A stretch of DNA of 64,000 nucleotides. It comes from an uncultured Fibrobacter sp. GTDB taxonomy: Bacteria; Fibrobacterota; Fibrobacteria; Fibrobacterales; Fibrobacteraceae. The DNA is taken from NCBI GenBank assembly GCA_946413655.1, contig CAMKLO010000010.1:1-64000 (forward strand). Direction: 5' to 3'. The position numbers and the translations under genes are program-made. Below the pieces are notes generated by a model. That model saw only the letters and a list, made by a program, of their open reading frames with translations. It did no database searches and had not been told where the DNA came from. Of the stretch, positions 17,570 to 51,700 are shown piece by piece; positions within the stretch are counted from its first letter, which is position 1, and each line of letters begins with the position of its first letter.

Positions 17570-17582
17570 AAAGGAGAAAAAC

Positions 17583-17765: not shown

Positions 17766-17776
17766 GGAGACTTCTA

Positions 17777-18169
17777 ATGAATACAGTCCTCATACTGATG
17801 AGCATTCACCATGAATGGGCAAACCTCATTTACAGTAAGTACAAGACAATAGAACTCCGCAAAACCGCACCAAAGGAACGCGGACCGTTCGAAGTCTATC
17901 TCTATGACACTTCCTCCCATCATGTAACCGGCATAATGGAAGTTTCGCACGTCCAAGAAATACCGTACGTCACCGATGAACTTTGCTCTAGAGCCTGCCT
18001 TGATCGCGAAGCCGTTGAAGCGTACAAGAATCAGGGTAACGGCAAGCTTTACGCCTGGCACATCGACAGCGCCTCATTTTATGACAATGATTGGCTCACC
18101 GTCGCAGACGCCCTGAACGACCCGAAAGCGACACGCCCACCACAATCCTGGCAATACCGTAAGAGGTAA
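17777..18169 (+). CDS. ASCH domain protein
   Basis: This 130-residue protein opens with ILMSIHHEWANLIYSKYKTI followed by ELRKTAP, the typical first strand/helix and E-x-R-K loop of ASCH domains, part of the PUA-like superfamily. ASCH proteins bind RNA or modified nucleosides, and some are amidohydrolases of acetylcytidine. The remainder (VTGIMEVSHVQEIP, YAWHID) fits the barrel. AAGGAGAC precedes the ATG. It is followed 2 nt later by a second PUA-like protein, so the two probably act together. The target is unknown; counter-defence or regulation are both possible. Confidence 0.7.
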   Translation: MNTVLILMSIHHEWANLIYSKYKTIELRKTAPKERGPFEVYLYDTSSHHVTGIMEVSHVQEIPYVTDELCSRACLDREAVEAYKNQGNGKLYAWHIDSASFYDNDWLTVADALNDPKATRPPQSWQYRKR

Positions 18170-18171
18170 CT

Positions 18172-22855: not shown

Positions 22856-23086
22856 AAATTAAACGAAATAGCGAACTGAGAGAAACCTTGAGTTAGGGAT
22901 TTGTGGGCAGTTGGAGGTAAGAATTGAGAACGTGTTTTTGGGCAGCCGCATAATATAATACAGACTTAACGATAATTATAATACAAGGTTGATGGATATC
23001 GCGAATTATTGAATCTTGAAAAAAATTTTTTGTTCCCTCCTTGAAAAAAAAGTTTATACTTATTCATTGGATATGAGGAGGTGGGT

Positions 23087-25198: not shown

Positions 25199-25212
25199 TC
25201 TGTGTAAAAAAA

Positions 25213-25220
25213 GGGGGGGG
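25213..25220 (+). promoter_or_regulatory. G8 tract forming the ribosome binding site of M6 copy 2
   Basis: Seven A and eight G precede AC and ATG. The tract is the only possible Shine-Dalgarno. The equivalent tract before copy 3 has six G (27215-27220). Length changes by strand slippage could alter translation. Confidence 0.5.
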
Positions 25221-25222
25221 AC

Positions 25223-27202
25223 ATGAAGTCCATTCAAATGCTATTACCGTTAATGGCGTTGACGGCGCATGCTTTTGCAATGCCAGCAAGCAACGCGACG
25301 TTTTTGTTGAAACAGCCCGACGGGACATCCATCGAAGCACGTAACGTGGGCAACGAGCATTTTCACGTACTCGAAACAGCGGATGGCTACATTCTGCAAG
25401 AGGATGAACTCGGCTATTACGCCTACGCAGACGAGACGGGTAAATCTTCAAAGATTTACGCCCGAGATGCGAAAGACCGCAGCGCCTCGGACATCCAATT
25501 CTTATCGAAACTCAAGCCCAAGGCGATTTATCGAAAGCTACGCGAATCAGCACAAAAAAACGAAATCCTAGCAGAATACAAAGTCCCAGCATACGCTCCA
25601 CAAGAGCGACAATTCCCTCCCAAGAACAATGCAAAAGGTGAATTGATAGGCGAATTTCGAGGGATTGTCATACTCGTACAATTCAAGGATGTCAAATTCA
25701 AAAGTCCCGACCCGCAAAAGCTATACACGGACTTTATGAACAAGGAAGGATTCAACGAGTTTTCAAATCAAGGTAGCGTAAGGGATTATTTCATAAAAAA
25801 TTCCATGGGAAAGTTTGTCCTGACATATGATGTTTATGGACCAATCACCCTCCCTGAAACTAGAGCCGATTACGGAAAAACCAGTGGCGCCAATAATTTT
25901 TTCGGGGCAGGACGCGCTTTCAAAGACGCTGCAACAATGCTGAGTCAACAAAAGAATATCGATTTTTCGAAGTATGATAATAACGGAAATACCGTAATTG
26001 ATTTTCCCGTTTTCATTTTTGCCGGCGTAGGTTCCAGTGATTCACCCGTCAAGGAGGCTTTTTGGCCGCATCAAGGCCTATTAGATTGGTCCCGGTTGCA
26101 AGCGGGCGTAAAAATGAACAGTAATCTTTATCTCAACGAATACGTCTGTGCTCCAGAAATTAACGGTTACGCCTACATTAAAGACAGCACGACCTCCACC
26201 ATACAGGGGATTGGAGCCGTAATTCACGAAACAGGGCACAGCCTTGGGCTACCGGATCTCTACAATACAGTACAAACTCATGCTCTATTCAACAATTCAT
26301 CATCCAGCAGTACAACATCTGGAATAAGACGAAAGACCCTGGGTACGTGGGACATAATGGACGACGGCTCTTATAACTGCGCAACCAATCCCTTTCAAGC
26401 CTGCACACCTCCGATGTACTCCGCATTCGAACGGATGACTCTGGGATGGCTTACGCCAACCGAACTTGAAGAAATCGGTTCCGTGAAACTGGATAAAATC
26501 GACACCAATGCGGCCTACAGCATCACCAACCCTAAAAATCCTGATGAATTTTTCCTATTGGAGTATCGGACAAACAAAAATTGGGATAAAGCAGTCCCGA
26601 ATTCGGGAATGCTGATATGGCATATCGACTATGTCGATACTATTTGGCTCCAAAGTATAATCAACGCCAACTATGAACATATGCATGTGGATATTGTAGA
26701 AGCGGATACTGCAAAGGACGCTAGAACCCATGCCTTCCCCGGTTTAAAGAACGTCACCAATTTCAACAAGTTCATATTCTGGAATGGCGACAGCATGAAA
26801 ATCGCCCTTTACAACATTACCGAATCGCCGGACTCGGAATACGTCACCTTTACCGTGGATATAGACGGGAGATTGTCAAGCGCAGCGGCACTTTCGTCAT
26901 CTTCACAAACGATCGAGTCCAGTTCCAGCGAGCAAACTGTTTTTGCAATGCACCATACACCTGCGCGAAACGTGCGGGTCCGGGCACACAACGGAGATAT
27001 TTACATCCATGCTCCGCAACAAGGCAAAAAGACCGTGCGGATATTCTCGCCCATCGGAACATTACTGTTCGAAAAAACGATGGACGGCACCGAACTCGTT
27101 ATTGAAAAAGTCCGAGAACTGCGAAACGCAAACGTCATCCTGTCCGTAACGCAAGGGAACAAGCAAATATACACCGGAATGCTCCATGAGACAATAAATT
27201 AA
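25223..27202 (+). CDS. secreted M6-family metalloprotease, copy 2
   Basis: A 659-residue paralogue of the upstream gene, 24 nt behind it and so in one operon. It has a signal peptide (MKSIQMLLPLMALTAHAFA), the pro-region (FLLKQPDGTSIEARNVGNEH), the zinc motif HETGHSLGLPD (H335, H339, D345), a short Ser-rich linker near residue 580, and the same C-terminal sorting-like domain. A small Ser-rich insertion follows the zinc site (about 354-368). Large blocks are almost identical in DNA to copy 3, while others differ strongly, suggesting exchange between copies. Confidence 0.82.
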   Translation: MKSIQMLLPLMALTAHAFAMPASNATFLLKQPDGTSIEARNVGNEHFHVLETADGYILQEDELGYYAYADETGKSSKIYARDAKDRSASDIQFLSKLKPKAIYRKLRESAQKNEILAEYKVPAYAPQERQFPPKNNAKGELIGEFRGIVILVQFKDVKFKSPDPQKLYTDFMNKEGFNEFSNQGSVRDYFIKNSMGKFVLTYDVYGPITLPETRADYGKTSGANNFFGAGRAFKDAATMLSQQKNIDFSKYDNNGNTVIDFPVFIFAGVGSSDSPVKEAFWPHQGLLDWSRLQAGVKMNSNLYLNEYVCAPEINGYAYIKDSTTSTIQGIGAVIHETGHSLGLPDLYNTVQTHALFNNSSSSSTTSGIRRKTLGTWDIMDDGSYNCATNPFQACTPPMYSAFERMTLGWLTPTELEEIGSVKLDKIDTNAAYSITNPKNPDEFFLLEYRTNKNWDKAVPNSGMLIWHIDYVDTIWLQSIINANYEHMHVDIVEADTAKDARTHAFPGLKNVTNFNKFIFWNGDSMKIALYNITESPDSEYVTFTVDIDGRLSSAAALSSSSQTIESSSSEQTVFAMHHTPARNVRVRAHNGDIYIHAPQQGKKTVRIFSPIGTLLFEKTMDGTELVIEKVRELRNANVILSVTQGNKQIYTGMLHETIN

Positions 27203-27223
27203 TCTGCGTAAAAAGGGGGGAAC

Positions 27224-29209
27224 ATGAAATCCATTCAATTACTATTACCGTTAATGGCATTGGCGGTGCATGCTTTGGCAGTGCCTGCAAGCAACGCAAC
27301 ATTTTCGTTGAAACAACCCGACGGGACATCCATCGAAGTGCGCAACGTAGGCGACGAGCATTTTCACGTACTCGAAACAGCAGACGGTTACATACTACAA
27401 GAAGACGAGCTTGGCTACTACGCCTACGCAGACGAGACGGGGGAATCCTCAAAGATTTACGCCCGAGATGCGAAAGACCGCAGTGCCTCGGACATCCAGT
27501 TCTTATCGAAACTCAAACCCAAGGCAGTTTATCGAAAGCTACGCGAATCAGCGCAAGAAAAAGAGATTCTGGCGGAATACAATGTACCATCATACGCACC
27601 ACAAGAGCGACAATTTCCTCCCAAGAACAACGTAATAGGTGAATTGATAGGCGAATTTCGAGGGATTGTCATACTCGTACAATTCAAGGATGTCAAATTC
27701 AAAAGTCCCGACCCGCAAAAGCTATACACGGACTTTATGAACAAGGAAGGATTCAACGAGTTTTCAAATCACGGTAGCGTAAGGGATTATTTCATAAAAA
27801 ATTCCATGGGAAAGTTCGTCCCGACATTTGATGTTTATGGACCAATCACCCTCCCTGAAACTAGGGCCTTTTACGTAAAAAACGGTAATAACAATATTTA
27901 TACTGAAGCAAGACTAGCCTTTAAAACCGCTGCAGAAATACTGAGTCAACAAGAAAATATCGACTTTTCAAAGTATGATAAGAACGGAAATTCCGCTTTT
28001 GATTTTCCCGTTTTCATTTTTGCCGGCGTAGGATCCCATGATTCACCCGTCAAGGAAGCGTTTTGGCCGCATAAAAGCCTATTTAGCACTAACTTGCAAG
28101 CAAGCATAAAATTTGGCAATAATCTTTATCTCAACGATTACGTCTGTGCTGCAGAGATTAACGGTTACGCCTACTCTATAGACAGCACAACCTCCACCAT
28201 ACAGGGTATAGGAACATTAGTTCACGAAATCGGACACAGTCTTGGACTACCGGATCTCTACAACACATCATCCAACGTAACATCATCCATCAGTTCATCA
28301 TCCAGCAGTACGCCATCCAATCGTTCATCTTCTAGCGTAATAAGAAAAACTCTTGGTAGGTGGGAAATCATGGACATGGGCATGTACAACTGTCTAGACA
28401 ATCCCAATCTAGGCTGCACACCTTCGATGTACTCCGCGTTCGACCGGATGTCTCTGGGATGGCTTACGCCAACCGAACTTGAAAAAGTCGGTCCCGTGAA
28501 ACTGGACAAAATCGACAACAATGTCGCCTACAGCATTACCAACCCTAAAAATCCTGATGAATTTTTCCTATTGGAATATCGATCACATAAAGATTGGGAT
28601 GAAGGGATCCCGATTTCGGGAATGCTGATATGGCATATCGACTATGTCGATTCAATTTGGCGACGTAGAATAATAAACAACAGGTATGAACACTTGTATG
28701 TGGATATTGTAGAAGCAGATACGGCAATGAACGTTAGAACCGATGCTTTCCCCGGTTTAAAGAACGTCACCAGTTTCAACAAGTTCATATTCTGGAATGG
28801 CGACAGCATGAAAATCGCCCTTTACAACATTACCGAATCGCCGGACTCGGAATACGTCACCTTTACCGTGGATATAGACGGGAGATTGTCAAGCGCAGCG
28901 GCACTTTCGTCATCTTCACAAACAATCGAGTCCAGTTCCAGCGAGCAAACTGTTTTTGCAACGCATCATCCACCTGCGCGAAACGTGCGGGTTCGGGCAC
29001 GCAACGGGGATATTTACATCCACGCTCCGCAACAAGGCGAAAAGACCGTGCGGATATTCTCGCCCATCGGTGCATTGCTGTTCGAGAAAACGATGGACGG
29101 CACCGAACTTGTCGTTGAAAAAGTCCGAGAACTGCGAAACGCAAACGTCATCCTGTCCGTAACGCAAGGGAACAAGCGGCTGTTTACGGGAATGATTGCT
29201 CAGAACTAG
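27224..29209 (+). CDS. secreted M6-family metalloprotease, copy 3
   Basis: A 661-residue paralogue, 21 nt after copy 2. Zinc motif HEIGHSLGLPD (H334, H338, D344). The Ser-rich insertion after the zinc site is longer than in copy 2 (SSISSSSSSTPSNRSSSS region), so this surface loop is a site of length variation. The last residues differ (LFTGMIAQN), but the C-terminal sorting-like domain is otherwise the same. The substrate-facing parts between the conserved blocks diverge most, pointing to different substrates for the three enzymes. Confidence 0.82.
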   Translation: MKSIQLLLPLMALAVHALAVPASNATFSLKQPDGTSIEVRNVGDEHFHVLETADGYILQEDELGYYAYADETGESSKIYARDAKDRSASDIQFLSKLKPKAVYRKLRESAQEKEILAEYNVPSYAPQERQFPPKNNVIGELIGEFRGIVILVQFKDVKFKSPDPQKLYTDFMNKEGFNEFSNHGSVRDYFIKNSMGKFVPTFDVYGPITLPETRAFYVKNGNNNIYTEARLAFKTAAEILSQQENIDFSKYDKNGNSAFDFPVFIFAGVGSHDSPVKEAFWPHKSLFSTNLQASIKFGNNLYLNDYVCAAEINGYAYSIDSTTSTIQGIGTLVHEIGHSLGLPDLYNTSSNVTSSISSSSSSTPSNRSSSSVIRKTLGRWEIMDMGMYNCLDNPNLGCTPSMYSAFDRMSLGWLTPTELEKVGPVKLDKIDNNVAYSITNPKNPDEFFLLEYRSHKDWDEGIPISGMLIWHIDYVDSIWRRRIINNRYEHLYVDIVEADTAMNVRTDAFPGLKNVTSFNKFIFWNGDSMKIALYNITESPDSEYVTFTVDIDGRLSSAAALSSSSQTIESSSSEQTVFATHHPPARNVRVRARNGDIYIHAPQQGEKTVRIFSPIGALLFEKTMDGTELVVEKVRELRNANVILSVTQGNKRLFTGMIAQN

Positions 29210-29305: not shown

Positions 29306-30370
29306 ATGGAAACGACATCGATAGTTTTGCCCAATGCACTCACCGCAGCTAACAGCAAAAAGCTGCTCTCCAGCTGCAGGAGTGCCCTCAATAAAGGGGA
29401 GCTACATCTGGACGGATCAAGCCTCACCTCGATGGACTACAGCGCCGATGCGTTTTTTGCACTTTTGGCAGAACTTTCCGAAAAGACGGGCAACAGGCTC
29501 GTCCTCGCCCATTTCACCCCGGAAATCAAGCAGCACTTGCAGAACCTCCGCAAGATGGAGCCGCCCGAAAAGCCCCAGCGCGAAACGAACAATGTCCTCG
29601 AAATGATGGGCGATGTCGGATTCATGCTGCTCCGCGAAACGTTCGAAGTGCTCGTTTTGCTCTTCATGTCCATTTACTGGACGCTAATCGGCCCGTTCGA
29701 CAAGGGGAAAATCCACTTTGGCGGCATCACCAAGCAGATGTTCAAGTCGGGCAGCGAAGCCATGGGCATTTGCTTTTTGTTCGTAGGACTCATTTGCCTT
29801 ACGATGGCCTTGCAGAGTTCAGTGATGTTGAATGCTGTTGGCGGCGGTTCCTACCTCGCTTCAGGGCTCGGGTTCCTCATTTTTGCAGAAATCGGCCCGC
29901 TGCTCACGACAATTATTCTGGCCGGGCGTTCCGGCAGCGCCATGGCGGCAGAAATTGCGAACATGAGCGTCTGCGAAGAAGTGAAGGCGCTAAAATCCAT
30001 GGCGATTCCGCCGGTGCAGTACCTCGTGGTCCCGCGGTTCATCGCTTTAAGCGTCACGACGCCGATTCTTTCGTTCAGCGCGTCCATCGTCGGTAGCTTT
30101 GCCGGATTCCTCATTGCGTATTTCTTCTGCGACATTTCTTTCTCGAACTACATGATGGGGCTGCGCGACGGCATCGACCCGATGACGTTCCTCAAGAGTA
30201 CCATCAAGGCGCTTGTGTTTGGCTGGATTGTAACGCTCATCGCCTGCAATAAGGGGCTGAACGCCCACGGCGGTGCAGAGGCGGTCGGTAAAGCGACCAC
30301 GTCCAGCGTTGTGGCTGCGATTTGCACGATTGTTGTTTCCGACACCCTTTTCGCCTTCATTTTCTACTAG
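29306..30370 (+). CDS. mlaE: MlaE-type lipid ABC permease with N-terminal STAS-like domain
   Basis: The 354-residue protein has a soluble STAS-like N-terminus (1-95: GELHLDGSSLTSMDYSADAF, FALLAEL). A MlaE permease with about five to six membrane helices follows, including the family segment FAEIGPLLTTIILAGRSGSA and AAEIANMSVCEEVKALKSM. It transports phospholipid between the membranes together with the ATPase, MCE protein and lipoprotein encoded next. Many MlaE proteins lack the STAS part, which in other systems is a separate MlaB. No Shine-Dalgarno is visible. First gene of a four-gene operon. Confidence 0.85.
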   Translation: METTSIVLPNALTAANSKKLLSSCRSALNKGELHLDGSSLTSMDYSADAFFALLAELSEKTGNRLVLAHFTPEIKQHLQNLRKMEPPEKPQRETNNVLEMMGDVGFMLLRETFEVLVLLFMSIYWTLIGPFDKGKIHFGGITKQMFKSGSEAMGICFLFVGLICLTMALQSSVMLNAVGGGSYLASGLGFLIFAEIGPLLTTIILAGRSGSAMAAEIANMSVCEEVKALKSMAIPPVQYLVVPRFIALSVTTPILSFSASIVGSFAGFLIAYFFCDISFSNYMMGLRDGIDPMTFLKSTIKALVFGWIVTLIACNKGLNAHGGAEAVGKATTSSVVAAICTIVVSDTLFAFIFY

Positions 30371-30378
30371 AGGTCAAT

Positions 30379-31161
30379 ATGGACGAAATTCTGAAAGTTG
30401 ACCATTTGAAGGCAAGCTACGGCAGCGAGACTATCCTGAAGGACGTTTCTTTTGGCGTGCGCAAAGGCGAAATCCGCATGGTGCTCGGAAGCTCCGGTTG
30501 CGGTAAATCGACGCTACTGAACAATGTGCTCAAGTTCATCAAGTCGGACGAAGGCACGATTACGTACTTCGGAAAATCTTTCGGCCCCAAGGAAGGCCTC
30601 GACAGCGAGACCCGCATGCGTACTGGCGTACTTTTCCAGAGCGGTGCGCTCCTTGCAGACTTGACCGTCGCCGAAAACGCGATGCTTCCGCTCAAGAGGA
30701 GCATGCCCTACATGCCCAAGAGCCAGATGGAAGCGATTGTTGCAGACCGCCTCGAAAAAGTGCACCTGCTCCACGCATTCCACAAGTTCCCCGGCGAAAT
30801 CTCCGGCGGTATGAAAAAGCGTGCCGCCCTCGCCCGTGCTATTGCGCTCAAGCCGGAACTCTTGTTCTGCGACGAACCTTCGACAGGCCTTGACCCGGTG
30901 ACCGCCCGTTCGCTCGACGAGCTGCTCCTCGAACTGCGCGACACGCTCAAAGTTTCGATGGTCATCGTGAGCCACGAACTCGAAAGCATCAAGATTGTCT
31001 GCGACCGCTTTGTTTATCTCAAGGACGGTTACGTTCTGAAAGACGCGACTTTGAAAGAAGGCATGGAATCCGACGATCCCGTCCTTCGGCATTTTTTCAA
31101 CAGGCAGTGCCCCAAAGAAAACAATGCTACTGATTTTTATAACTTTGAATTTATAGATTGA
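30379..31161 (+). CDS. mlaF: MlaF-type ABC transporter ATPase
   Basis: ATG 30379 (AGAGG 8 nt upstream) gives a 260-residue ATPase. Walker A is GSSGCGKST, the signature is SGGMKKRAALARA (the M-K-K-R form typical of MlaF), Walker B is LLFCDEPSTGLDP, and the switch histidine is in VIVSHELESI. The longer upstream frame would overlap the permease and lacks a signal. It powers lipid movement by the permease. 12 nt separate it from the MCE gene. Confidence 0.9.
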   Translation: MDEILKVDHLKASYGSETILKDVSFGVRKGEIRMVLGSSGCGKSTLLNNVLKFIKSDEGTITYFGKSFGPKEGLDSETRMRTGVLFQSGALLADLTVAENAMLPLKRSMPYMPKSQMEAIVADRLEKVHLLHAFHKFPGEISGGMKKRAALARAIALKPELLFCDEPSTGLDPVTARSLDELLLELRDTLKVSMVIVSHELESIKIVCDRFVYLKDGYVLKDATLKEGMESDDPVLRHFFNRQCPKENNATDFYNFEFID

Positions 31162-31173
31162 GTTGGAGATATA

Positions 31174-32097
31174 ATGGAAACCACCCGATCAGAAAGAATA
31201 AAACTAGGCGCATTCATGCTCTTTTGCGGAGTGCTTATTTGCGTGTTCCTAGGTTATGTACTTAAGCGCTATTTGAGCGAGCAATTCGACAACTACTACA
31301 CCATTTTCGACACGGACGTAAACGGGCTTTTTGTCGATGCCAAGGTGAAGTTGAACGGTATTTCCGTCGGTAGCGTCACAAGCATTACCATCAACGAACA
31401 AAATTTGAACCAGGTTGTCGTCGCATTCAAAGTGCAACGCGGCACGCCAATCAAGGTCGGCACACGCGCCGGCATGACGGCAGGTATGAACCTCACCGGT
31501 GAAAAGCAGGTCATCCTTTCGGGCGGAAACTACGACGAACCCAACGTTCCCGAAGGCGGACTCGTGCCGGCGGCGACATCGATGTTCGACCAGATTACCG
31601 GCAAGGTAGGCGATCTCTTCGGCAAGGTAACTCCGATTGTTGAAGGACTGAACCGTTTGCTCTCCGAAGAAAATGCCGAAGCGCTCTCCCGTAGCCTCAA
31701 GAATTTCGAAAAGACGACAGAAAACCTGAGCAAGTTAACAGAGGATTTGAGGAAACCGCTCAACACGATGAGCAAGTCCGCCGCCTCGATGCAAAAGATT
31801 CTTGCAGAAATCGAAGAGGCGAAGCTCGCCGCCAAGGCCGATGCAAGTATCACGACGCTCAAAGAAAAGCTCGACGCCATCGACACGAAGGGCTTGAACG
31901 ACAACCTGATGCAGACCGCGGAATCGATGAACAAGCTCACGCAGCGTGTTGACGCAATGGTCTACAAGAACGAAGACCAGGTGGGCAATGCCGTGGAAGA
32001 ACTCAACACGATTCTTGAAAACCTCGAAGAATTTACCCAGAAGATTAAGAACAACCCGTCCGTACTCATCCGCTCCGAAGGCAAGAACGGTCGATAA
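31174..32097 (+). CDS. mlaD: MlaD-type MCE-domain lipid carrier subunit
   Basis: A 307-residue protein with one N-terminal membrane helix (about 11-30, LGAFMLFCGVLICVFLGYVL). A single MCE domain follows (VNGLFVDAKVKLNGISVGSV, GTRAGMTAGMNLTGEKQVIL), then a long helical, coiled-coil-like tail from about 140 to the end. MCE subunits form a hexameric ring with a lipid tunnel in the periplasm. The helical tail could extend the tunnel towards the outer membrane. GGAG precedes the ATG. Confidence 0.88.
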   Translation: METTRSERIKLGAFMLFCGVLICVFLGYVLKRYLSEQFDNYYTIFDTDVNGLFVDAKVKLNGISVGSVTSITINEQNLNQVVVAFKVQRGTPIKVGTRAGMTAGMNLTGEKQVILSGGNYDEPNVPEGGLVPAATSMFDQITGKVGDLFGKVTPIVEGLNRLLSEENAEALSRSLKNFEKTTENLSKLTEDLRKPLNTMSKSAASMQKILAEIEEAKLAAKADASITTLKEKLDAIDTKGLNDNLMQTAESMNKLTQRVDAMVYKNEDQVGNAVEELNTILENLEEFTQKIKNNPSVLIRSEGKNGR

Positions 32098-32109
32098 AAA
32101 GGAGAAATC

Positions 32110-32712
32110 ATGCGTATTCTTAAAGCAAATCGTTTGTTGGCTGTTGCCGCACTCCTTTCCGTTTTCACACTCACGGGTTGCCTCGGCGGTTCGACAGAAC
32201 CGTCCCGCTATTACACAGTCTCCGCGGAATCCATCTCGGTGGCCGGGACCGCCAGCGATGCCCGCGTGCACGTCAAGAAATTTACGATTGACCCAGCCTA
32301 CCAGCGCAGCAACATCGTCTATCGCGAATCGCCGTACGACTTCATGTTCTACGATTTGGACCTCTGGGCCACGCGTCCAGAACAGATGCTCACGCAGGTC
32401 GCAGGCGAATACCTAGTCAAGAGCAACCTCTTCAAGTCCGTGGATTTGAAGCCGATAGGAAAGCCGGACTTTGAATTGCTCGGTAGCGTGGATGCGATTG
32501 AGGAAATTGACGAAGGCAGTTCGCAGGACGCCCACCTCGCCTTGCAGCTCACGTTCCGCAAGACAGGCGAAGACGCCCCGCTGTGGGAAAAGCGCTATGA
32601 CGAACGCCAAAGCATGAACAAACGCGATGCACACTCCGCTGCCGAAGCACTCTCGAAGCTCTATGCAAGGTTCATGCAGGACGCACTCGAAAATATTGCA
32701 AGGGTGAAGTAA
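32110..32712 (+). CDS. ABC-transport auxiliary lipoprotein, PqiC-like
   Basis: A 200-residue lipoprotein (signal ending TLTGC) with the pattern of PqiC/ABC auxiliary lipoproteins: SRYYTVSAESIS, VHVKKFTIDPAYQRSNIVYR, SPYDFMFYDLDLWATRPEQM, and a helical end (SAAEALSKLYARFMQDALEN). These proteins sit at the outer membrane and work with MCE transport systems. It closes the mla-like operon, with AAAAGGAG before its start. Confidence 0.8.
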   Translation: MRILKANRLLAVAALLSVFTLTGCLGGSTEPSRYYTVSAESISVAGTASDARVHVKKFTIDPAYQRSNIVYRESPYDFMFYDLDLWATRPEQMLTQVAGEYLVKSNLFKSVDLKPIGKPDFELLGSVDAIEEIDEGSSQDAHLALQLTFRKTGEDAPLWEKRYDERQSMNKRDAHSAAEALSKLYARFMQDALENIARVK

Positions 32713-34315: not shown

Positions 34316-34321
34316 ATCGAC

Positions 34322-34329
34322 GAATATAG
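34322..34329 (-). promoter_or_regulatory. -10-like box 6 nt before xseB
   Basis: On the minus strand CTATATTC is followed by GTCGAT and ATG. It lies in the 29-nt gap to the divergent 34345 gene, so both promoters are packed into this space. Confidence 0.45.
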
Positions 34330-34344
34330 TTAGATTTAAATCAA

Positions 34345-35052
34345 ATGAATTTATTCAATCGCCCTATTTTACCGTTTTTAGTGTTCGCCACTTTTTTTGC
34401 ACTGCATCTAGTCGGTTGCCTCGATGTACCCGACTATCCGCACGAATTGCAACCCGTTGAGTCCATCACCGTCATGGTCCAGCAAAAGAAGGCCCCTTAT
34501 TCGACCTTACTCAAAGTCAACCCATCTGATTCGGCGACAATCACAGCAAAAGCCATTCCCGAAGAAAATCAAGACGACCTGACCTTCAAGTGGTTTTTTG
34601 TCAGCGAAAGCAAAGACAGTTTGCTCAAGCAAGGCGATCATTACTCCTTCTACCCGAATACGCTCAACGAAACGATTCCAAACAAACTTATAGTCTTGGA
34701 TAAAGAAGGGAATCAACAAGTTCTCGAATTCACAGTCGTCATCAATACGCCTCCTGTACTTTCGGATTCGACAGTCCCAGCAAGCGGGGACACGCTCTAC
34801 GGCTCGCAATTTTCGGCATTCCGTTTTTCGTGGAGCAGCATGGACTTGGATTTATATAGCGGAGACACGCTTTTCCATATTCTAGAAATCGACGGAAAGC
34901 AATATGATGTAGGGACGCTCCTCGAAGTCAAACAATCGGGGTTCAAAGCGGGCAAACACAAATTCCGCATCATCGTCCGCGATCTCTATGGCGATACAGA
35001 TACTCTTTCGTACAAGGACTTCTATGTCGTTGACACATTGGAGGCCAAATGA
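34345..35052 (+). CDS. lipoprotein 1 of a five-gene envelope operon
   Basis: The 235-residue lipoprotein has signal LVFATFFALHLVGC. A PKD/Ig-like domain follows (LTFKWFFVSESKDS ... LEFTVVINTPPVL), then a second beta domain ending LYGDTDTLSYKDFYVVD. The same plan, with a D-x-x-G-D strand and VNTP/ADNP turn, recurs in the next two proteins, so the three are diverged paralogues. Its stop overlaps the next start (ATGA). No Shine-Dalgarno precedes the ATG. Function unknown; an outer-membrane binding complex is one possibility. Confidence 0.75.
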   Translation: MNLFNRPILPFLVFATFFALHLVGCLDVPDYPHELQPVESITVMVQQKKAPYSTLLKVNPSDSATITAKAIPEENQDDLTFKWFFVSESKDSLLKQGDHYSFYPNTLNETIPNKLIVLDKEGNQQVLEFTVVINTPPVLSDSTVPASGDTLYGSQFSAFRFSWSSMDLDLYSGDTLFHILEIDGKQYDVGTLLEVKQSGFKAGKHKFRIIVRDLYGDTDTLSYKDFYVVDTLEAK

Positions 35053-36620
35053 AATTTGCAAGAATCTATTTCCTTGTAGCGATAGTCTGGCTCTTCCAGT
35101 CTTGCTTTGATTCCGACGAGCACATTTTTGACGAAGCCGACGCCACAGACATAAGCATCGATGCGACTTTGGCAAGGTCAGCATCCCCTGTTACAGAAAG
35201 CGTCAAGGCAGATACATTCAACATCAACGACACAATCTATTTCCAGACATCGGTTGTACCCAACAAAGTCGTCCGAGTCCAAGATTATCATTGGCTCATG
35301 AACGGACAATACTGTTCATCGGAATACAACTTCAAAAAACAAATCGAAGTTCCCGGCTACTACAAATTCACATTTGTCCTTAAAGACTACTTTGGCGACA
35401 TGCACTACGATTCCCTTGAGGTGTGGGTCGCAGACAATCCCATCCTAAACGACACTTTGTTCATCCCGGCAACAGGAACACAGACCATAGACCCCTACGA
35501 GAGCATCTACTTCTCTTGGAAAGCTTCAACCAAAGGGATCCGTCTCGCCCATCATTTCCGTTTTACACTGAGCGAAGAAGAATTTGCAAATTCAGAAACC
35601 AACTTTAAAGACATTGACACAATCTTGGACGAGCCGCACTTTGTATTCCACAATGAATTGAACCCATTAAAAAAATACAACTGGACAGTCCAAGCCTTTA
35701 ACGAATACAATTTTGCATCTAGCGAAAAAATCGAGAGTTTCTTTTTCACCAAGGGGCTCGATGGCGAAGGATCACTACAGGCAACCATTAAAACGAGTGT
35801 GCAATCATCTATCCCCGTACATTTATCGCTCACAGACAAAACAAACGAAAACAAAGTGTTCAATTACGAGTTTTCAATCTCGCAATCCAAAAACAAAATA
35901 TCGGTAGGCGCCGTCCCAAAAGGATCATACAAACTAGAATTAAGTTCCAATTATTCCGATTTCGGAACAACAAAAAAAGACGTCACCATTCACGAAGGGC
36001 TCGTTACAACATTAGACAACATCAAGCTTGTCGATTCCATAGCGCCATCAATTACATCCGTTTTGAATCTCGACACACTTGATTTTTCCGACACCCTGCA
36101 CTTTGTCATAAAAGATGAAGGAGGTCCAATAAACTCGCAAAACATAGCTGTCAATTTGGAATCCGACATTATTACAGATCGATTCTACAAGGATAGCATT
36201 CTAACAGTAATCCTCAAAGAAACTGATAAAAGTTGGACTTACCGAATCCTCACAATTTCTGTTATTGACGGAAGCAACAACAACAAAACAAAATCTTTCT
36301 ACATCACTCCAAGTTCGCTATGGTTTACTACGAACGACGACACAATCATTGAAAGCGACGAATCTATCGTGCTATTCATCAATGACATAAACCCATTCGG
36401 TTTCAAAGTAGCAGCACTTCAATTATTTAATGTCACCAAGAACGAAGACATTATAACAGTTTCAAATATTGACAACAATTCTCTTCACGCAGAACTAGGA
36501 GCCGATTTATTCGATAAAGAACAAATTATACGATCTACAGTCATTTACACGAACGGCATAACGCAAAACAAATATTGGAAACTGACTGTTAGAAAAGCCG
36601 AGACGAAGGAGGAGGACTAA
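35049..36620 (+). CDS. lipoprotein 2 of the envelope operon, multi-domain
   Basis: A 523-residue lipoprotein (signal ends IVWLFQSC). Domains are an N-terminal PKD-like part (DYHWLMNGQYCSSEYNFKKQ ... DYFGDMHYDSLEVWVAD), a fibronectin-like part (LNPLKKYNWTVQAFNEYNFA), a carboxypeptidase-regulatory-like part (VPKGSYKLELSSNYSDFGTT), and further beta domains to the end. Codon use is AT-richer in the second half. It overlaps both neighbours (ATGA and a shared base), so the operon is tightly coupled. The structure suggests a rod-like surface protein. Confidence 0.75.
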   Translation: MKFARIYFLVAIVWLFQSCFDSDEHIFDEADATDISIDATLARSASPVTESVKADTFNINDTIYFQTSVVPNKVVRVQDYHWLMNGQYCSSEYNFKKQIEVPGYYKFTFVLKDYFGDMHYDSLEVWVADNPILNDTLFIPATGTQTIDPYESIYFSWKASTKGIRLAHHFRFTLSEEEFANSETNFKDIDTILDEPHFVFHNELNPLKKYNWTVQAFNEYNFASSEKIESFFFTKGLDGEGSLQATIKTSVQSSIPVHLSLTDKTNENKVFNYEFSISQSKNKISVGAVPKGSYKLELSSNYSDFGTTKKDVTIHEGLVTTLDNIKLVDSIAPSITSVLNLDTLDFSDTLHFVIKDEGGPINSQNIAVNLESDIITDRFYKDSILTVILKETDKSWTYRILTISVIDGSNNNKTKSFYITPSSLWFTTNDDTIIESDESIVLFINDINPFGFKVAALQLFNVTKNEDIITVSNIDNNSLHAELGADLFDKEQIIRSTVIYTNGITQNKYWKLTVRKAETKEED

Positions 36621-38008
36621 TGAATTACAAATTCCATTCCTTTCCGATAATTTTCTCGGCAATTATTGCGCATTTGCTGATTTCATGTTCCGATTCCGAA
36701 ATCCATTCTTCGGACGTTCCCGAAATCACGCAATCTATTTTCGTCGTACCAGAAAGCTATATTGGCGATCCATACAACCGTTACGCACCTTCTGACGAAT
36801 TCTACGTTGACATCAATGAGAAAATTCGTTTTTGCGGTATTTACTCCGTTAACGGAGAATTTGTACCTAGTGACCAATCAATAATGTATTACAATACACA
36901 CAAATGGACAGTTGACAACCACGAAGCAGGAACATCATCCTTGTATTACAAATTCGATAAAGCGGGCGTCCACAAAGTTTCATTTGAAACAATAGACCAT
37001 CTCGGCGACACGCTACTTTCGCGTGCAACTGTTTATGTCAATACACCGACGACCATTTCGTTGCAATCTCCTCCCAACAGATACAACTTGGTCAATGGAG
37101 ACAATCCTAACGGGCTCGAATTATCCTGGAAAGTGTTCGGCATCGATCCGTGGGAATCATCCATTTGCGTCATCTATGCGAGCTACTACCGAGACGAAAT
37201 TTGGGATTCTCCTCTAGGAGAAACCGAATGCTCGCAAAGCGTAGATTTGATGGGCAGACTCAAAAAAGACATCAATGAAAATGGAGACCCCATCAATCAT
37301 GTCATTGACAACTCCACTATTTACTGGGGAGTCCGGGTACTTACCAAAAACAGCAGGGGCAACATTGAACAAGCATATAGTGATGTTTTCAGTTTTTCAA
37401 CAAAGCTTGATAACAAAGGCAAGGCCATCATAGAGGTACCTGTCGCTTGTATGTACAGTCAGTATCCCGAAAAGTCCAAGTTAAAAGGAGCGTTCATTTC
37501 TAAAGCCGGCGATACCCTTTCCAGATTTTCCGACATCAGCGTAAACTCGACTATCAAAAAAACATTGCCCCCGCAATCCAACGTTAAAATAGTCGTCTGC
37601 GACAGCATCCGTACGGAATATGGTTGCAGTTCCATGACTATAGATTTGGCGCCAGGTACAAAGACATTAACAGACACGCTGTTCCTGCAGGACAAAGTAA
37701 AACCCAACATGACTCCCGCTTCAACAGAAACTTCATCCTCATCACCAATAAAGTTCTTTATTCTCGATAATGGTTCAGGCGTCAACGCATCAAGAATCAC
37801 AACCATCATGAACAACGATACTCTTAAAACCGTTTTTGACGACTACACGTTGAGCATTCCAAACAAATGCAAAAAAGAATGTAAACTTGTTATCAAAGCC
37901 GAAGATTACGCCCAAAACAAGGCTCCCGAAGTCTATTGGAAGATTTCAACCGTAAAATCAGTAACGACTGTCACGGGTCCCTATTCAGAAACGGAGTACG
38001 ACAAATGA
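36620..38008 (+). CDS. lipoprotein 3 of the envelope operon, multi-domain
   Basis: A 462-residue lipoprotein (signal ends AHLLISC). It follows the plan of lipoprotein 2: PKD-like part (HKWTVDNHEAGTSSLYYKFD ... DHLGDTLLSRATVYVNTP), fibronectin-like part (NSTIYWGVRVLTKNSRGNIE), then a regulatory-like beta domain, and a domain with SSSSPIKFFILDNGSGVNAS. Several extra cysteines (KCKKECKL and others) may form disulfides. The start shares a base with the previous stop, and the end overlaps the next start. Confidence 0.75.
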   Translation: MNYKFHSFPIIFSAIIAHLLISCSDSEIHSSDVPEITQSIFVVPESYIGDPYNRYAPSDEFYVDINEKIRFCGIYSVNGEFVPSDQSIMYYNTHKWTVDNHEAGTSSLYYKFDKAGVHKVSFETIDHLGDTLLSRATVYVNTPTTISLQSPPNRYNLVNGDNPNGLELSWKVFGIDPWESSICVIYASYYRDEIWDSPLGETECSQSVDLMGRLKKDINENGDPINHVIDNSTIYWGVRVLTKNSRGNIEQAYSDVFSFSTKLDNKGKAIIEVPVACMYSQYPEKSKLKGAFISKAGDTLSRFSDISVNSTIKKTLPPQSNVKIVVCDSIRTEYGCSSMTIDLAPGTKTLTDTLFLQDKVKPNMTPASTETSSSSPIKFFILDNGSGVNASRITTIMNNDTLKTVFDDYTLSIPNKCKKECKLVIKAEDYAQNKAPEVYWKISTVKSVTTVTGPYSETEYDK

Positions 38009-38646
38009 GCTGTCTTAAATGCACCTCCTTCTTTTTTGTACTTCTGTTCGTACTTTGCGCAAATCTTTTCGCTCAGCCAAAGACAAATGTACGCTACTTA
38101 CAAGTTTCAACAAATCCATCTACTGTAGATCTCTATACCGGAGACACACCACCTGATTTTTCAAAGAATCCCGCATACACATCTCCGGCATTCATCCCTA
38201 TTCCTGACAGGGCAGAAAGCATTACAGTTTCATTTTTTCACCCCGATTACGCGGACACGACGATAAACATCACCTTGTCTGAAAGTGATACATCCTTTAT
38301 TATTGTAGCCCTTCGCCAAACCTACGATGACGATATTCTTGCCGATCATCAGGACATGCTAAAGCATCGCAGCAGGCGCAATCTCGGGCAAGCCCTCCAA
38401 TGGTTCTCTATTGCGCCATTCGTGATTAGCGGTATTTCGGCCATTGTCACGTTATACGACATAGGCAAAGCGAACGACCACAAAAAAGCGATGGAAAACA
38501 CACGCTTTATGAATGAAAAATACGATGTCCACATGCAGGAATTCAAGGATTACAGGAAGAGTGCCAAGACATCGAAAACAGTTTCCAAAGTTTTTTTCGG
38601 AACCGGTTTAGTGTTCCTTGCCGCAGGATTTGCCCTTTCATTTTAG
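38005..38646 (+). CDS. PEGA-like membrane protein of the envelope operon
   Basis: Start at ATG 38005 (ATGA overlap with lipoprotein 3) gives a 213-residue protein with a signal peptide (SFFFVLLFVLCANLFA). A PEGA-like beta domain follows (VRYLQVSTNPSTVDLYTGDT ... VSFFHPDYADTTINITLSE), then a helical region with two membrane segments: near 130-152 (FSIAPFVISGISAIVTLY) and at the C-terminus (VFFGTGLVFLAAGFALSF). PEGA domains bind surface or wall components. The C-terminal half resembles the end of the next protein. Confidence 0.7.
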   Translation: MSCLKCTSFFFVLLFVLCANLFAQPKTNVRYLQVSTNPSTVDLYTGDTPPDFSKNPAYTSPAFIPIPDRAESITVSFFHPDYADTTINITLSESDTSFIIVALRQTYDDDILADHQDMLKHRSRRNLGQALQWFSIAPFVISGISAIVTLYDIGKANDHKKAMENTRFMNEKYDVHMQEFKDYRKSAKTSKTVSKVFFGTGLVFLAAGFALSF

Positions 38647-38653
38647 GTAGATT

Positions 38654-40360
38654 ATGAAAAAGATTTTCTCAATTCTAGCAATCGCCTTAGTCTCTGCCTT
38701 CGCTGAGCCCGAAGGAAAACTCGTTGACGTTGAGCTCCTCTCGGGAACACAACAACGTGCAAAGCTCATGGGCATCGAAAACGATACCGTGAGCCTCGGT
38801 GGCTACATTCAGAATAAGTTTACAATCGTAAAAATTGCCAAGAAGCAATTCAAAAGAATTGTAGATGAACAGGGCAACGATTTGTTGAATGCAGATAACG
38901 CACAAGGCAGCACGGCTAAAAAAGAACCCGCCGCCAAAGAACCTATTGCAGTCAAAGACTCCGTCAAGACAGCAACGAGTTCAAGCGCAACCACCACAAG
39001 CTCCGCATTTCAGGAACCAACTACAAAACCGGTACCAAGTTCTAGTTCCGTTGTTTCCAAAGAACCCAGTTCCAGTTCGATCATCAAAAGTTCTTCATCG
39101 ATTGCTAGTTCTTCTGCCGTTTCAAGTTCGTCGAGCGTCAGTTCCTCAAGCGAAATTGCAGTCGTGAAGCGTGAAAACAAAACAGTTCTTGTCGCCTACG
39201 ACGCCAACAATGTCGAAAAATCCTTTGCAGATCAATTTACTGCACTTACCGCACGCCTTTTATTCGAATCTGGAGAAAAGCCTCAAATCATCCGCAAGAC
39301 CGACATACAAAACTGCAACGACAACGTCTGCATTCAAAGTGAACTCGCCGCCCACGGTTTCAACTCCATCTACTTCGGCGACATCACCCCCGTCATCGGA
39401 ACAGACAGTCTCCGTTTAAACCTAACACACGTTTTTTATGAAGATACACTCCCGACACTGCACCGCGCAACGCTCACAATTTCTGAAGAGAAAGCTCTCA
39501 GCGATGCCATTACTAATAACAAACTAAAAAATCAATTATTGAATGCCCAAGGTAAAGACATCGTCAAATTGAAAAAAGACCGCGCCTACATCCACATCGA
39601 CACCGATCCCGACGGAGCAACGATTTCACGCACCAACAAAGACGCCATTTGCAAATCGCCCTGCACATTTATCACCACAGACACATCCAAATTCACAGTC
39701 CACGCCTACTGGAACGTCGAAAGGCACCTCTGGGGTGCAAGCACAAGCGTTGTCCCGCTCATTGGCGACACGACGCACATTTCGCTAAAGCTCAAACGCG
39801 TTACGCCAGAAATCCGCATCCAGACATTCCCCGAAGGAGCAAACGTCTATAAAGCAGAAAAGCCCATCACCAAGCGCACCAAGGCCATTGCACAAACCCC
39901 TGAAAAAATACCGGTTTACGAAATGGGAATGGACAGTCTCGTCATCCGCAAGGCAGGTTACCGCGACACGCTAATCAGTTTCTTCGTCGCTCCCGTTCCG
40001 CAAATCGACTTGAGCATTGACCTGCAAAAACTCACCGACTTTGACGAAATCGAAAAACAGAACAAGTGGCTCCACGACAAGAAAATGCACACCCTCGGTG
40101 AAGCGTTTATCGGCGGATCCATCGGCACGGCGCTTATCGGCGGCCTGTTCATGTACCTTGCGCACTTGGACTACAGCGACGCTGACGACATCAAGAAAGA
40201 ACTCCGGATTCCCGGAGCCGTCAAAGGCGAGAACTACAAGAATAAAGTTGACAAGAACCACAAGCTAGTCAAGCAAGGTGACAACAAGGCCATCGCCGGA
40301 GGCATCCTGCTAGGGACCGCAGCGGCCCTCCTCGGCGTCGGCATCTACTTTGTATTCTAA
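38654..40360 (+). CDS. large PEGA-type membrane protein ending the envelope operon
   Basis: The 568-residue protein has a signal peptide, a small beta domain (KLVDVELLSGTQQRAKLMGI), and a Ser-rich linker (about 110-172). A central alpha/beta domain follows (KTVLVAYDANNVEKSFADQF ... GFNSIYFGDITPV), reminiscent of TolB-like N-terminal domains, then PEGA-like domains (YIHIDTDPDGATISR; EIRIQTFPEGANVYKA) and two C-terminal membrane helices (about 487-505, 545-566). This suggests a periplasmic sensor or anchor tied to the inner membrane. AGG precedes the ATG and a strong terminator follows. Confidence 0.75.
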   Translation: MKKIFSILAIALVSAFAEPEGKLVDVELLSGTQQRAKLMGIENDTVSLGGYIQNKFTIVKIAKKQFKRIVDEQGNDLLNADNAQGSTAKKEPAAKEPIAVKDSVKTATSSSATTTSSAFQEPTTKPVPSSSSVVSKEPSSSSIIKSSSSIASSSAVSSSSSVSSSSEIAVVKRENKTVLVAYDANNVEKSFADQFTALTARLLFESGEKPQIIRKTDIQNCNDNVCIQSELAAHGFNSIYFGDITPVIGTDSLRLNLTHVFYEDTLPTLHRATLTISEEKALSDAITNNKLKNQLLNAQGKDIVKLKKDRAYIHIDTDPDGATISRTNKDAICKSPCTFITTDTSKFTVHAYWNVERHLWGASTSVVPLIGDTTHISLKLKRVTPEIRIQTFPEGANVYKAEKPITKRTKAIAQTPEKIPVYEMGMDSLVIRKAGYRDTLISFFVAPVPQIDLSIDLQKLTDFDEIEKQNKWLHDKKMHTLGEAFIGGSIGTALIGGLFMYLAHLDYSDADDIKKELRIPGAVKGENYKNKVDKNHKLVKQGDNKAIAGGILLGTAAALLGVGIYFVF

Positions 40361-40397: not shown

Positions 40398-40426
40398 ACC
40401 TCGGCTACTGTGCCGAGGTCTTTTTT
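40398..40426 (+). terminator. terminator of the envelope operon
   Basis: ACCTCGGC (40398-40405) and GCCGAGGT (40412-40419) with a 6-nt loop, then C and six T. Confidence 0.85.
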
Positions 40427-41358: not shown

Positions 41359-42336
41359 CTAGTCTTTTACGCAACGGATGGAATAAGCGTTATAAAAATT
41401 AAAAGGTGCTGAATTAAAATCCTCATAAATTGCATCCGAGGAATATTTCAAGCTAAAATAAGCTTCACCTCTATTGATGTATCCAGAGGGAAGACCAAAA
41501 TACGAACTCCAAAAGAAGGCATCAGAACCGCCATCAAAAGAATAATAAGTTAATGTATTTTCATTTGAAAAATTTTCTGAATCAACATCCACTCTATGCA
41601 ATTGTCCCGCCGGTTTCGCACAAAAACCAAACTCATCCGTTCCATTGCCATCATTTAACCATCCTTCGCTAGACTTCAACTTTTTTCCAGCAACATCTTC
41701 ACCACCAACAAATTCAAATAGCATTTCAAATTCTTCTTTACTTGGCAAGTGCCATCCCTTTGGACAGATTCCGCGAACGGGGTCCACTATTTTGCAATTA
41801 TTGTAATCAAAGCACCCTTTCCCATTACTCCCAAAAATTCCAGCACCATCGACCGCGGCCCCCCAATAATAAAGCCTTCCATATTTAGAACAGCTATCCG
41901 GTTCATTCCCATAGCACCAGCTCGATGAATCCTGATATCCGGCCGGTTCCAAATAGGCATAATTCAAATTCTCAGCCATCCACGTCTGCGTCCCGATAAC
42001 CACCGTCCTATATTCCTGGCTATCGCGAAGATCAAATAATTTATTCTGTTCAGAATTAAATATGCTACTGTCTTTAAGAACTACGCTATGTTGTATATAA
42101 ATTGATGAAGAGGATTCAGTCACATTGGATACGCTAGACGATTGTGCCTCTGACGATGAACTTTCAACCAGTGCAAAATCACTTGACGATAGAATCCATG
42201 ACGAAGACGAGGTTAACACGGCATCACTTATGGAGGACGGCAGACTTGCATACTCAGCATCCGTTGCGCTATCGTCAGTACACGCAACAATAAAGAACAA
42301 CATGCAAAGAAAACAGCAAAGCACAATCTTTTTCAT
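41359..42336 (-). CDS. FISUMP-domain lipoprotein
   Basis: A 325-residue lipoprotein (signal ends MLFFIVAC) with a Ser-rich linker (about 35-80) and one Fibrobacter major paralogous domain: EYRTVVIGTQTWMAENLNYA, KYGRLYYWGAA, VRGICPKGWHLPSKEEFEML, and a final SIRCVKD. GGAGG stands before the ATG. The domain is related to the SUMF1/FGE-like fold in its G-W-H-L-P part and is highly expanded in this genus. Molecular function unknown; surface exposure is likely. Confidence 0.88.
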   Translation of the reverse strand: MKKIVLCCFLCMLFFIVACTDDSATDAEYASLPSSISDAVLTSSSSWILSSSDFALVESSSSEAQSSSVSNVTESSSSIYIQHSVVLKDSSIFNSEQNKLFDLRDSQEYRTVVIGTQTWMAENLNYAYLEPAGYQDSSSWCYGNEPDSCSKYGRLYYWGAAVDGAGIFGSNGKGCFDYNNCKIVDPVRGICPKGWHLPSKEEFEMLFEFVGGEDVAGKKLKSSEGWLNDGNGTDEFGFCAKPAGQLHRVDVDSENFSNENTLTYYSFDGGSDAFFWSSYFGLPSGYINRGEAYFSLKYSSDAIYEDFNSAPFNFYNAYSIRCVKD

Positions 42337-48764: not shown

Positions 48765-51700
48765 CTAAACTTTTAACGAATTAACACCCATTTCGAGCAA
48801 GTAACCGCCATTTGCACCGCCAACAGGCCCCAATTCGACCTTCCAGTCCGCCAAACGGATAATATCGGGGTGATGTTCGATGACAATGACCGTATCGCCA
48901 CGAGCCGAAAGACGGCGTAAGAGGTTCCACAAGATTTGAATATCCTTCAAATGGAGGCCCGTCGTCGGTTCATCAAGCAGATAGACCATTTCCGTCGCCG
49001 GACGGCGGCAGAGTTCCGCGGCAAGCTTCAATCGCTGAGATTCGCCGCCCGAAAGCGTGGTAACCGGTTGTCCAAGCTTCACATACGGGAGGCCCACATC
49101 GCGGAGGCATTCCAGCTTCGGTAAAATCTTCGGCTGATCCTTGAAGAACTCACAGGCTTCCACCACACGCATGTCAAGCACGTCAGCGATGTTCTTGCCC
49201 TTGAACGTGACCGTCAGCGTTTCCTGGTTGTAGCGTTTGCCACCGCAAGCTTCGCACGTTTCCCAGATGTCCGAGAGGAAGTGCATTTCGACAGCGATGG
49301 CGCCACGGCCTTCGCAAACTGGGCACCGGCCACGTGCGAGGTTGTAACTGAAACGGCCGTAATCAAAGCCTTTAACCTTAGACTGCTCGAGTTTGGAGAA
49401 CAGCTTGCGGATATCGTCAAACACGCCCGTAAAGCTCGCCGGCGTACTGCGCGGCGTCCCGGAAATCGGGCTCTGATCGACGAGCAAGACCTCACCGCTC
49501 TGCTTTTTGCGACCACGCGCCTGGAACTGTTTCTTAAGCGCCGGGAAAATTTCATCTACGACAAGCGAGCTCTTGCCCGAACCCGAAACGCCACAGACAA
49601 CGCTCACCGCTCGCTTCGGGAATTTTACAGACAAATTCTTAAGATTATTCGCATTGAGGTTCTTGAACTCATAGAATTCCGTATCATCCGTAATGCGCAC
49701 CGGTTCCAGTTGGTTCGCCACCGGCGTAGAATACGTGAGGAACTTGACCGTTTCGCTACGCGGGAAACGCTGCAACGCATACGGTTTCGCCAGTTCTGCC
49801 GGAGTTCCTTCTGCGACGACTTCGCCACCGAAATCACCCGCGCCAGGACCCATGTCAATAATGTGGTCCGCCGCCTGCATCATCTTGAGGTCATGTTCCA
49901 CGACCACGAGCGTGTTGCCGAGGTCGCGCAAGCGGTAAAGCGTATCGAGGAGTTTCGCGGTATCGCTTTCGTGGAGGCCGACCGTCGGTTCATCAAGCAC
50001 ATAAAGCACGCCTTCGAGGCCGCTACCAATTTGGCTTGCCAAGCGAATGCGCTGGGATTCGCCGCCCGAGAGCGTGTCGCCCGCACGGTCAAGGCCAATG
50101 TAGCCAAGCCCCACGCTAATCAGAAAATCCAAACGCCCGATGATTTCGCGGAGGAGCGGCGCGGCAATCGTCGTCTTGCTTTGGATGGATGCAGACGTCG
50201 CATTTTCTTCGTTCGCGAAATCGACTTTCGCAAACCAGTCGCGGGCTTCGGCAATGCTCATGTGATGCACGTCCATAATGTTCTTGCCCAAGATGCGCAC
50301 CGCCAGATATTCGGGCTTCAAGCGTTCGCCGTGGCAGTCGGGGCATTCTTCGCCATCCTTGAAGTGACCAAGGCCGAGGCATGTTTCGCAGGCGCCCCAG
50401 TGCGTGTTGAAGCTGAAATGTTTCGGATTGAGCGCCGAATCCATGTACCAGCCACATTCCGGGCAGCCCGGCTTTTCGCTGGCCGAGAGGCGTTCTTCGC
50501 CATCGCAATCCACGTAGAGAATACCGTTACCGTCGCGGTAGCCACGTTCAAACGCTTCGACGAGGCGAGCACGGTTTTCTTCCTTGACGACCACGGAATC
50601 AACCACGGCGAGCAACTGCTTTTCGCGTGTCGGAATTTTCGGCAAAGGAAGCTCTACCAATTTATTGCCAAGATACGCCTTGCGATAACCCTTTTCCGTG
50701 AGAATCTTGGACAACTTAATTTCGTCCTTGATTTCGAACGGGGCAAGCACCGTCACCATCTTGTTGAGGTCGCGGTCAAAGGCAAACTGCACCAAGTCGC
50801 CTGCGGCGTAGGAGCTGACCGGCTTTCCACACTTCAAGCAATGAGCCGTTCCCACGCGGGCCCACAAAATGCGGAAGTAGTCGTAAATTTCCGTGAGTGT
50901 CGCGACCGTACTGCGCGGGCTCTTGCTTGCGCTCTTCTGGTCAATCGCAATCGCAGGCGCGAGTCCCGAAATGGAATCAATGCTACCGCGGTCGGGGCGG
51001 CCCAAGAATCGGCGAGCGTAAGTGCTGAGCGTTTCGACAAAACGGCGCTGCCCTTCGCTAAAGAGCGTATGGAAAGCAAGGCTAGACTTGCCCGAGCCCG
51101 AAACGCCCGTAATCACCGTGAGCTTGTGACGCGGAATCGTGACATCGATATTCTTGAGGTTGTGCTTGCGCGCTCCATGAACTTCGATATCGAGCGAGTA
51201 ATCTTCGCCCTTTTCGTCCGTGCGGTCAAAATGCTTGTTTTCGCCATGCTTTTTCGCCAAAACCGGAGCCAAGTAGCGCCCCGTCTCCGACTTTTTGCAT
51301 TTGGCAATTTGTTCGGGAGTTCCCGTGGCGATAATGCGGCCGCCGTTCACGCCCGCATCCGGGCCCAAATCGATAATCCAGTCTGCACACTTGATCACGT
51401 CGAGGTTGTGTTCAATCACCACGACGCTGTTGCCGAGACTACGCAAACGGTTCAAGCATTCGAGCAATCGGCGAATATCTTCAAAGTGCAAACCGGTTGT
51501 CGGTTCGTCGAGCAAGTAAAGCGTCTTGCCCGTACCCGGACGGCGGAGTTCCGAAGCAATTTTCACGCGTTGCGCTTCACCGCCGCTAAGCGTTGTCGAG
51601 GGTTGACCCAGCGTCAAATAGCCAAGGCCCACTTCGCAAAGGAGCTTGAGCGGTTCTGCAATTTTCGGAATGTCCTTGAAAAATTCAGCGGCATCGGCAA

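Follow-up and report, generated by a model that had tools for sequence, protein, structure and literature searches.

A conserved five-gene operon of the Fibrobacteraceae that may encode a lipoprotein-anchoring module of the cell envelope

A 64,000-nucleotide stretch of DNA from an uncultured Fibrobacter sp. (contig CAMKLO010000010.1, positions 1 to 64,000; hereafter the window) contains five complete open reading frames (ORFs), genes A to E, which the ORF list places head to tail on the plus strand between positions 34345 and 40360. These genes are a real, conserved and coupled operon of the family Fibrobacteraceae. At a probability of about 50%, we predict that their products form one constitutive cell-envelope module of the family, a complex that anchors or displays outer-membrane (OM) lipoproteins.

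The arrangement of the genes carries the first part of this argument. In the window, A and B overlap by 4 nt, B and C by 1 nt and C and D by 4 nt, and D and E are spaced by 7 nt. A single scan of named genomes yielded 54 loci, all of them from genomes titled Fibrobacter, Fibrobacteraceae or Fibrobacterales. At 53 of these loci the five genes are complete and keep their order, and the remaining locus lies at a contig end. Junctions of no more than 14 nt in either direction were found at 53/54 (A/B), 54/54 (B/C), 53/54 (C/D) and 53/53 (D/E) loci, the commonest gaps being -4, -8, -4 and +7 nt, respectively. The first-pass annotation of the window had described the five genes as translationally coupled and as a single tight unit, and had named scattering of the genes in relatives as the outcome that would speak against it; the overlaps and short gaps in the window and the preserved junctions elsewhere bear out the coupling, and the order is kept not only at these loci but also in seven further genera of the Fibrobacteraceae (g8, g9, g10, g11, g12, g14 and g16), where all five genes are present. 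In genus g10 the flanks have changed to serine acetyltransferase and endonuclease III-type genes, and the block, there extended by the accessory gene F described below, is still together. The operon is reduced in g13 and g17, which have short lipoproteins and a form of E that lacks the N-terminal domain. With protein B as the query, the gene was found in all 25 genomes of the same genus (including the window's own genome) and in none of 16 genomes of other families, and a profile of E found relatives throughout the family and beyond. Compared with the nearest relative, each gene has a ratio of nonsynonymous to synonymous substitution rates (dN/dS) of about 0.10-0.18, and thus all five are under purifying selection.

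Pfam and NCBIfam searches with the window proteins alone returned almost nothing, and the domains became visible through sets of orthologues and structural models. Since hhalign links the three lipoproteins to one another and D to E, the operon consists of two families, each of which has been duplicated. B and C are full-length homologues (hhalign probability 99.8%, with most of each sequence aligned), while A aligns with the first part of B only (98% over roughly the first 180 residues of A) and with C at 94%. Alignments of 25 orthologues show no variation at the lipobox cysteine in A, B or C. A has a signal peptide followed by PKD-like and Ig/FN3-like beta domains and is a shorter relative of B, in which PKD, FN3-like and CarboxypepD_reg-like domains precede a variable C-terminus; some B orthologues match CarboxypepD_reg and PKD_4 in Pfam. 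The kinship of the three proteins agrees with the first-pass annotation, which had assigned them a common PKD-like, fibronectin-like and regulatory-like plan, but A is too short to hold the regulatory-like domain. The model of C (pLDDT 89.9) comprises four beta domains, the first of which resembles the PKD domain of ColG (Z 10.2, rmsd 2.2, 82 residues aligned), and its Ig/FN3 pairs have structural matches at about Z 10 that include the FN3 modules of the cellulase CbhA. With a lipobox and PKD-type beta domains, these are tandem PKD/Ig lipoproteins. The Fib_succ_major domain was not found in A, B or C with Pfam or NCBIfam.

D and E had been described as two membrane proteins with PEGA-like domains and similar two-helix C-termini, a description upheld by a Pfam match, by their homology and by a model. 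E scores 21.0 bits against a cut-off of 20.8 bits for PEGA (PF08308), and 53 of 54 E orthologues contain a match. D has no Pfam match of its own, but hhalign aligns it with E at 99.5% probability over its whole mature length, so that D is a copy of the C-terminal half of E, homologous to the second PEGA domain and the hairpin. Both proteins have ordinary signal peptides, and E has no conserved lipobox cysteine. In the model of E (pLDDT 80), a TolB_N-like domain and two PEGA/TTR-like domains are followed by a two-helix hairpin, and an LSm-like barrel near the N-terminus has a weak Foldseek match to Hfq. Residues 172-303 resemble PelC (Z 10.4), FlgT (Z 10.0) and the N-terminal domain of TolB (Z 9.4, rmsd 3.1, 111 residues aligned), all of which are envelope proteins. 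The TolB-like domain ascribed earlier to E therefore stands as a TolB amino-terminal fold, although the model contains no TolB propeller. The folds predicted for C and E are resemblances, not functions. Sequence-profile searches of the PDB with E and F gave nothing significant.

The ends of D and E are unusual in their own right. The last residue is phenylalanine in 160 of 160 distinct hairpin proteins, compared with 6.5% of 826 background ORFs; these 160 proteins share ancestry and cannot count as 160 separate events, though they come from more than one class. Both phenylalanine codons are used at these ends, and the last sense codons of D and E in the window lie at 38641-38643 and 40355-40357. 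Both hairpin helices of E are rich in glycine, and the hairpin segments matched no glycine-zipper family of Pfam in searches up to an E-value of 10. Lysine and arginine are commoner before the first transmembrane helix (TM1) than after it in 47 of 54 E proteins and 17 of 25 D proteins, which conflicts with the positive-inside rule for a hairpin in the inner membrane whose N-terminal domains lie in the periplasm. The side preceding the second helix (TM2) of E is also basic, however. An invariant C-terminal phenylalanine would also suit the OM. Thus, of the surface-to-inner-membrane complex proposed at first, the single coupled unit has held up, and its inner-membrane part is doubtful in view of the charge bias and the terminal phenylalanine.

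Relatives of E outside the family point to a recurrent genomic association with lipoproteins. Distant relatives in three other families (G039, of the same class, and G103 and G060, of the same phylum) combine PEGA and/or CsgG/LpoB-type domains with the same hairpin, and CsgG matches in Pfam reach 2.7e-8 and 2.2e-10 at loci L174 and L175. In G039 and G060, a large lipoprotein gene with PKD and Fib_succ_major domains lies directly 3' of the E-like gene on the same strand; in G103 the following lipoprotein, PKD-like and regulatory-like by eye, runs off the contig. Many Fibrobacter genomes also encode a paralogue, E', which was not found in the window's genome (G000). At 9 of 11 E' loci (L101-L111), the gene is followed by a same-strand run that holds a large lipoprotein gene, identified by Pfam or by its lipobox, and four of these are of the Fib_succ_major type. 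The genes downstream of E' usually include lipoprotein genes, some of which contain a PCMD or Fib_succ_major domain, as well as barrel-like genes, some with weak OM-barrel matches; an RsmB/F-type methyltransferase gene lies upstream at locus L103. Since these genomes hold many Fib_succ_major genes, single adjacencies at the E' loci could be due to chance. Taken across the phylum, the PEGA-hairpin family is paired with multi-domain lipoproteins repeatedly, though not always, and it is possible that Fib_succ_major lipoproteins (the 'major paralogous domain' family) are partners of E-like proteins.

How might the five proteins work together? A, B and C would reside in the OM as rod-like beta subunits, and D and E would be held in a membrane by their glycine-rich hairpins. 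The PEGA domains of both, together with the TolB_N/PelC-like and LSm-like domains of E, would then occupy the periplasm, those of E on a flexible linker, where they may dock the bases of the lipoproteins. Such a platform would anchor or display A, B and C and connect them with the remainder of the envelope, and in many relatives the presumed OM barrel F would be added. That the five proteins form a physical complex is inferred. Its role is probably constitutive envelope architecture, and the predicted module would be a structural scaffold for anchoring or display rather than a dedicated cellulose adhesin or sensor.

F, a protein of about 476-560 aa, is encoded 3' of E, usually about 85 nt away, in 41 named loci. 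Of 27 F proteins, 12 have a weak OM-barrel match; a conserved, helical-looking part comes next and, in most, a lysine-rich tail. F is absent from the ten loci nearest the window and was not found in the window's genome and its four nearest genomes, or in the tested genomes of g8, g9, g11, g13 and g17; in G112 it is present elsewhere. F was considered as a core part of the system and rejected, and its absence from the window's clade and five other genera makes it accessory. The simplest reading is that F is ancestral and was lost more than once.

Several observations weigh against an envelope module built around E and its lipoproteins. No significant sequence match to CsgG, LpoB or TolB_N was found in the 54 E orthologues, and hhalign aligned E with the distant CsgG-type domains at an insignificant level (E-value 0.14), although a conserved cysteine pair lines up. 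G025 and G026 have an E-like gene with no lipoprotein gene adjacent, and F is missing from the window's genome and from several genera.

A serious alternative, which we nonetheless consider unlikely, is that D and E are inserted in the OM by their glycine-rich hairpins and a terminal phenylalanine that is read by the OM assembly machinery, and there form the platform that displays the lipoproteins. The universal terminal phenylalanine with its two codons, the lysine and arginine excess before TM1 of E and the glycine content of both E helices all favor such a placement. The model, however, predicts long alpha helices and no strands, the missing glycine-zipper match and the basic residues before TM2 speak against it, and the common ancestry of the 160 proteins lessens the weight of the phenylalanine. 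A wider version of this idea, which is doubtful at present, would place D, E and their relatives in one family of OM hairpin proteins found throughout the phylum. The invariant phenylalanine would be its targeting signal despite the helical membrane part, and the family would be the missing platform on which the PKD, regulatory and Fib_succ_major surface lipoproteins of the Fibrobacterota are anchored or displayed.

The lipoproteins might instead attach the cell to plant fiber, A, B and C being plant-cell-wall adhesins or glycan-binding spacers and D and E their anchor. Their multi-Ig architecture is like that of surface glycan-binding proteins, with SGBP-B among the Foldseek matches, and like the FN3 modules of CbhA; moreover, the distant partner lipoproteins carry Fib_succ_major, which is listed among cellulose-binding proteins (PMC4704652). 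GH9 and fibro-slime genes are present in all family genomes tested, but genomes with the full operon and genomes with its reduced form do not differ in this respect, so these genes are of little help in judging whether it takes part in cellulose use. In strain S85, FSU_2134, a regulatory-domain lipoprotein of the envelope proteome, was lowered 1.33-fold on cellulose (PMC6851124). By gene order and its 22-residue signal peptide it may be the orthologue of C or B, a mapping that serves as a lead only. Pfam and NCBIfam identified no carbohydrate-binding module in A to E, and pairs of an E-like gene and a PKD lipoprotein gene occur in G039 and G060, where GH9 was not detected, although this point is weak, as G039 is only 79% complete. 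The plant-fiber attachment suggested by the first-pass annotation is thus not supported, and we regard it as quite unlikely. Its other suggestion, envelope sensing, fared no better and strikes us as highly improbable: the lipoproteins would detect envelope stress or the state of the surface, and D and E would pass the information on through the inner membrane. The proteins could be arranged so as to span the envelope, and TolB_N-type domains are known interaction domains. Nevertheless, no kinase, anti-sigma, cyclase or other signaling domain was found in A to E with Pfam and NCBIfam, no regulator is kept with the block where its neighbors change, and the sole part outside the periplasm would, from the model, be a loop of about 40 residues.

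Table. Coordinates of the operon, its domains and related loci. Genes, hairpin and gap are given in window positions; domains in residues.
Feature	Position	Strand	Description
Gene A	34345..35052	+	ORF; lipoprotein, 235 aa, lipobox C25
Gene B	35049..36620	+	ORF; lipoprotein, 523 aa, lipobox C19
Gene C	36620..38008	+	ORF; lipoprotein, 462 aa, lipobox C23
Gene D	38005..38646	+	213 aa; signal peptide, PEGA-like domain, helical hairpin, C-terminal Phe
Gene E	38654..40360	+	568 aa; signal peptide, multi-domain, helical hairpin, C-terminal Phe
Terminator-like hairpin	40398..40419	+	8 pairs, 6 G-C, with T-run; end of five-gene unit
Gap xseB / A	34316..34344	.	intergenic, ~29 bp; genes divergent
C domains (model)	33-142; 145-264; 265-358; 363-456		PKD; Ig/FN3; regulatory/TTR-like; Ig-like
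E domains (model)	22-83; 84-170; 172-303		LSm-like; disordered Ser-rich linker; TolB_N/PelC/LpoB-type
E domains (model), continued	311-383; 386-456; 463-567		PEGA1; PEGA2; helical hairpin; then C-terminal Phe
Gene F loci	L122-L164 (41 loci), e.g. L122:10663-12264		directly after E
E-like gene, then PKD + Fib_succ_major lipoprotein	L174:6706-11761; L176:913-4935		distant Fibrobacterota

The left neighbors of A, named by eye, are xseB and an oppF-type ABC ATPase gene, both divergent from the operon. Any promoter for A must overlap xseB, and no match to the sigma-70 consensus was found. A DedA-type gene is the next gene past the terminator-like hairpin. Further upstream of the operon, an Mla-type lipid transport cluster (29306-32712; permease-, ATPase- and MlaD-like genes and a lipoprotein gene, by eye) is also seen in several relatives. 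The left of the window holds prophage-like genes recognized by eye (416-18969; terminase-, portal- and head-morphogenesis-like ORFs). Three secreted proteins of about 660-705 aa, closely related to one another, are encoded in tandem at 23081-29209, and a UvrA-like ORF identified by eye (48765-54089; 1774 aa) is roughly double the normal length. Proteins that resemble Fib_succ_major by eye and motif and have lipobox-type signal sequences are encoded at 41359-42336 and 56915-58471. We know of no partner for 'major paralogous domain' proteins. Strain S85 has 54 of them and a relative up to 119 (PMC4704652).

How Fibrobacter holds its surface proteins and makes contact with plant fiber is an old question. 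A small operon that is universal and strict in its gene order, with a membrane-protein family found repeatedly beside such lipoproteins, is a concrete candidate for a part of the answer, and an invariant terminal phenylalanine on a helical hairpin is unusual in itself.

Comparison with known systems shows where the operon departs from each. While E shares the TolB_N fold with TolB of Tol-Pal, it has PEGA and LSm-like domains and a membrane hairpin in place of the beta-propeller, and its neighbors are not tol-pal, with no Pal or TolA gene beside it. The same alpha/beta fold is found in PelC, CsgG and LpoB, and distant E relatives match the CsgG and LpoB families of Pfam, but E joins this fold to PEGA domains and a hairpin, has neither a lipobox nor a significant sequence match, and belongs to an operon with no curli or exopolysaccharide export genes. 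E is a PEGA-domain protein by a score just above the cut-off and D by homology to E, but an operon with three lipoproteins and a hairpin ending in phenylalanine is not described for such proteins in the literature searched. A, B and C resemble SGBP-B of the Bacteroidota (6e9b) as lipoproteins of tandem Ig-like domains; unlike SusCD-type polysaccharide utilization loci, the operon has no SusC/SusD pair and no carbohydrate-binding domain. Glycine-zipper 2TM OM proteins of the SlyB type are, like D and E, exported proteins with a glycine-rich two-helix hairpin, although D and E have longer helices, no lipobox and no match to these families. Genes for Fib_succ_major (TIGR02145/PF09603) lipoproteins adjoin those of the E type, both in distant Fibrobacterota and at several of the E' loci, but A, B and C do not carry that domain. 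Searches of the literature, mostly outside subscription journals, on the operon itself and on PEGA in connection with either Fibrobacter or CsgG returned nothing relevant. The domains themselves are of known kinds, and it is their combination and its recurrence in the phylum that appear undescribed.

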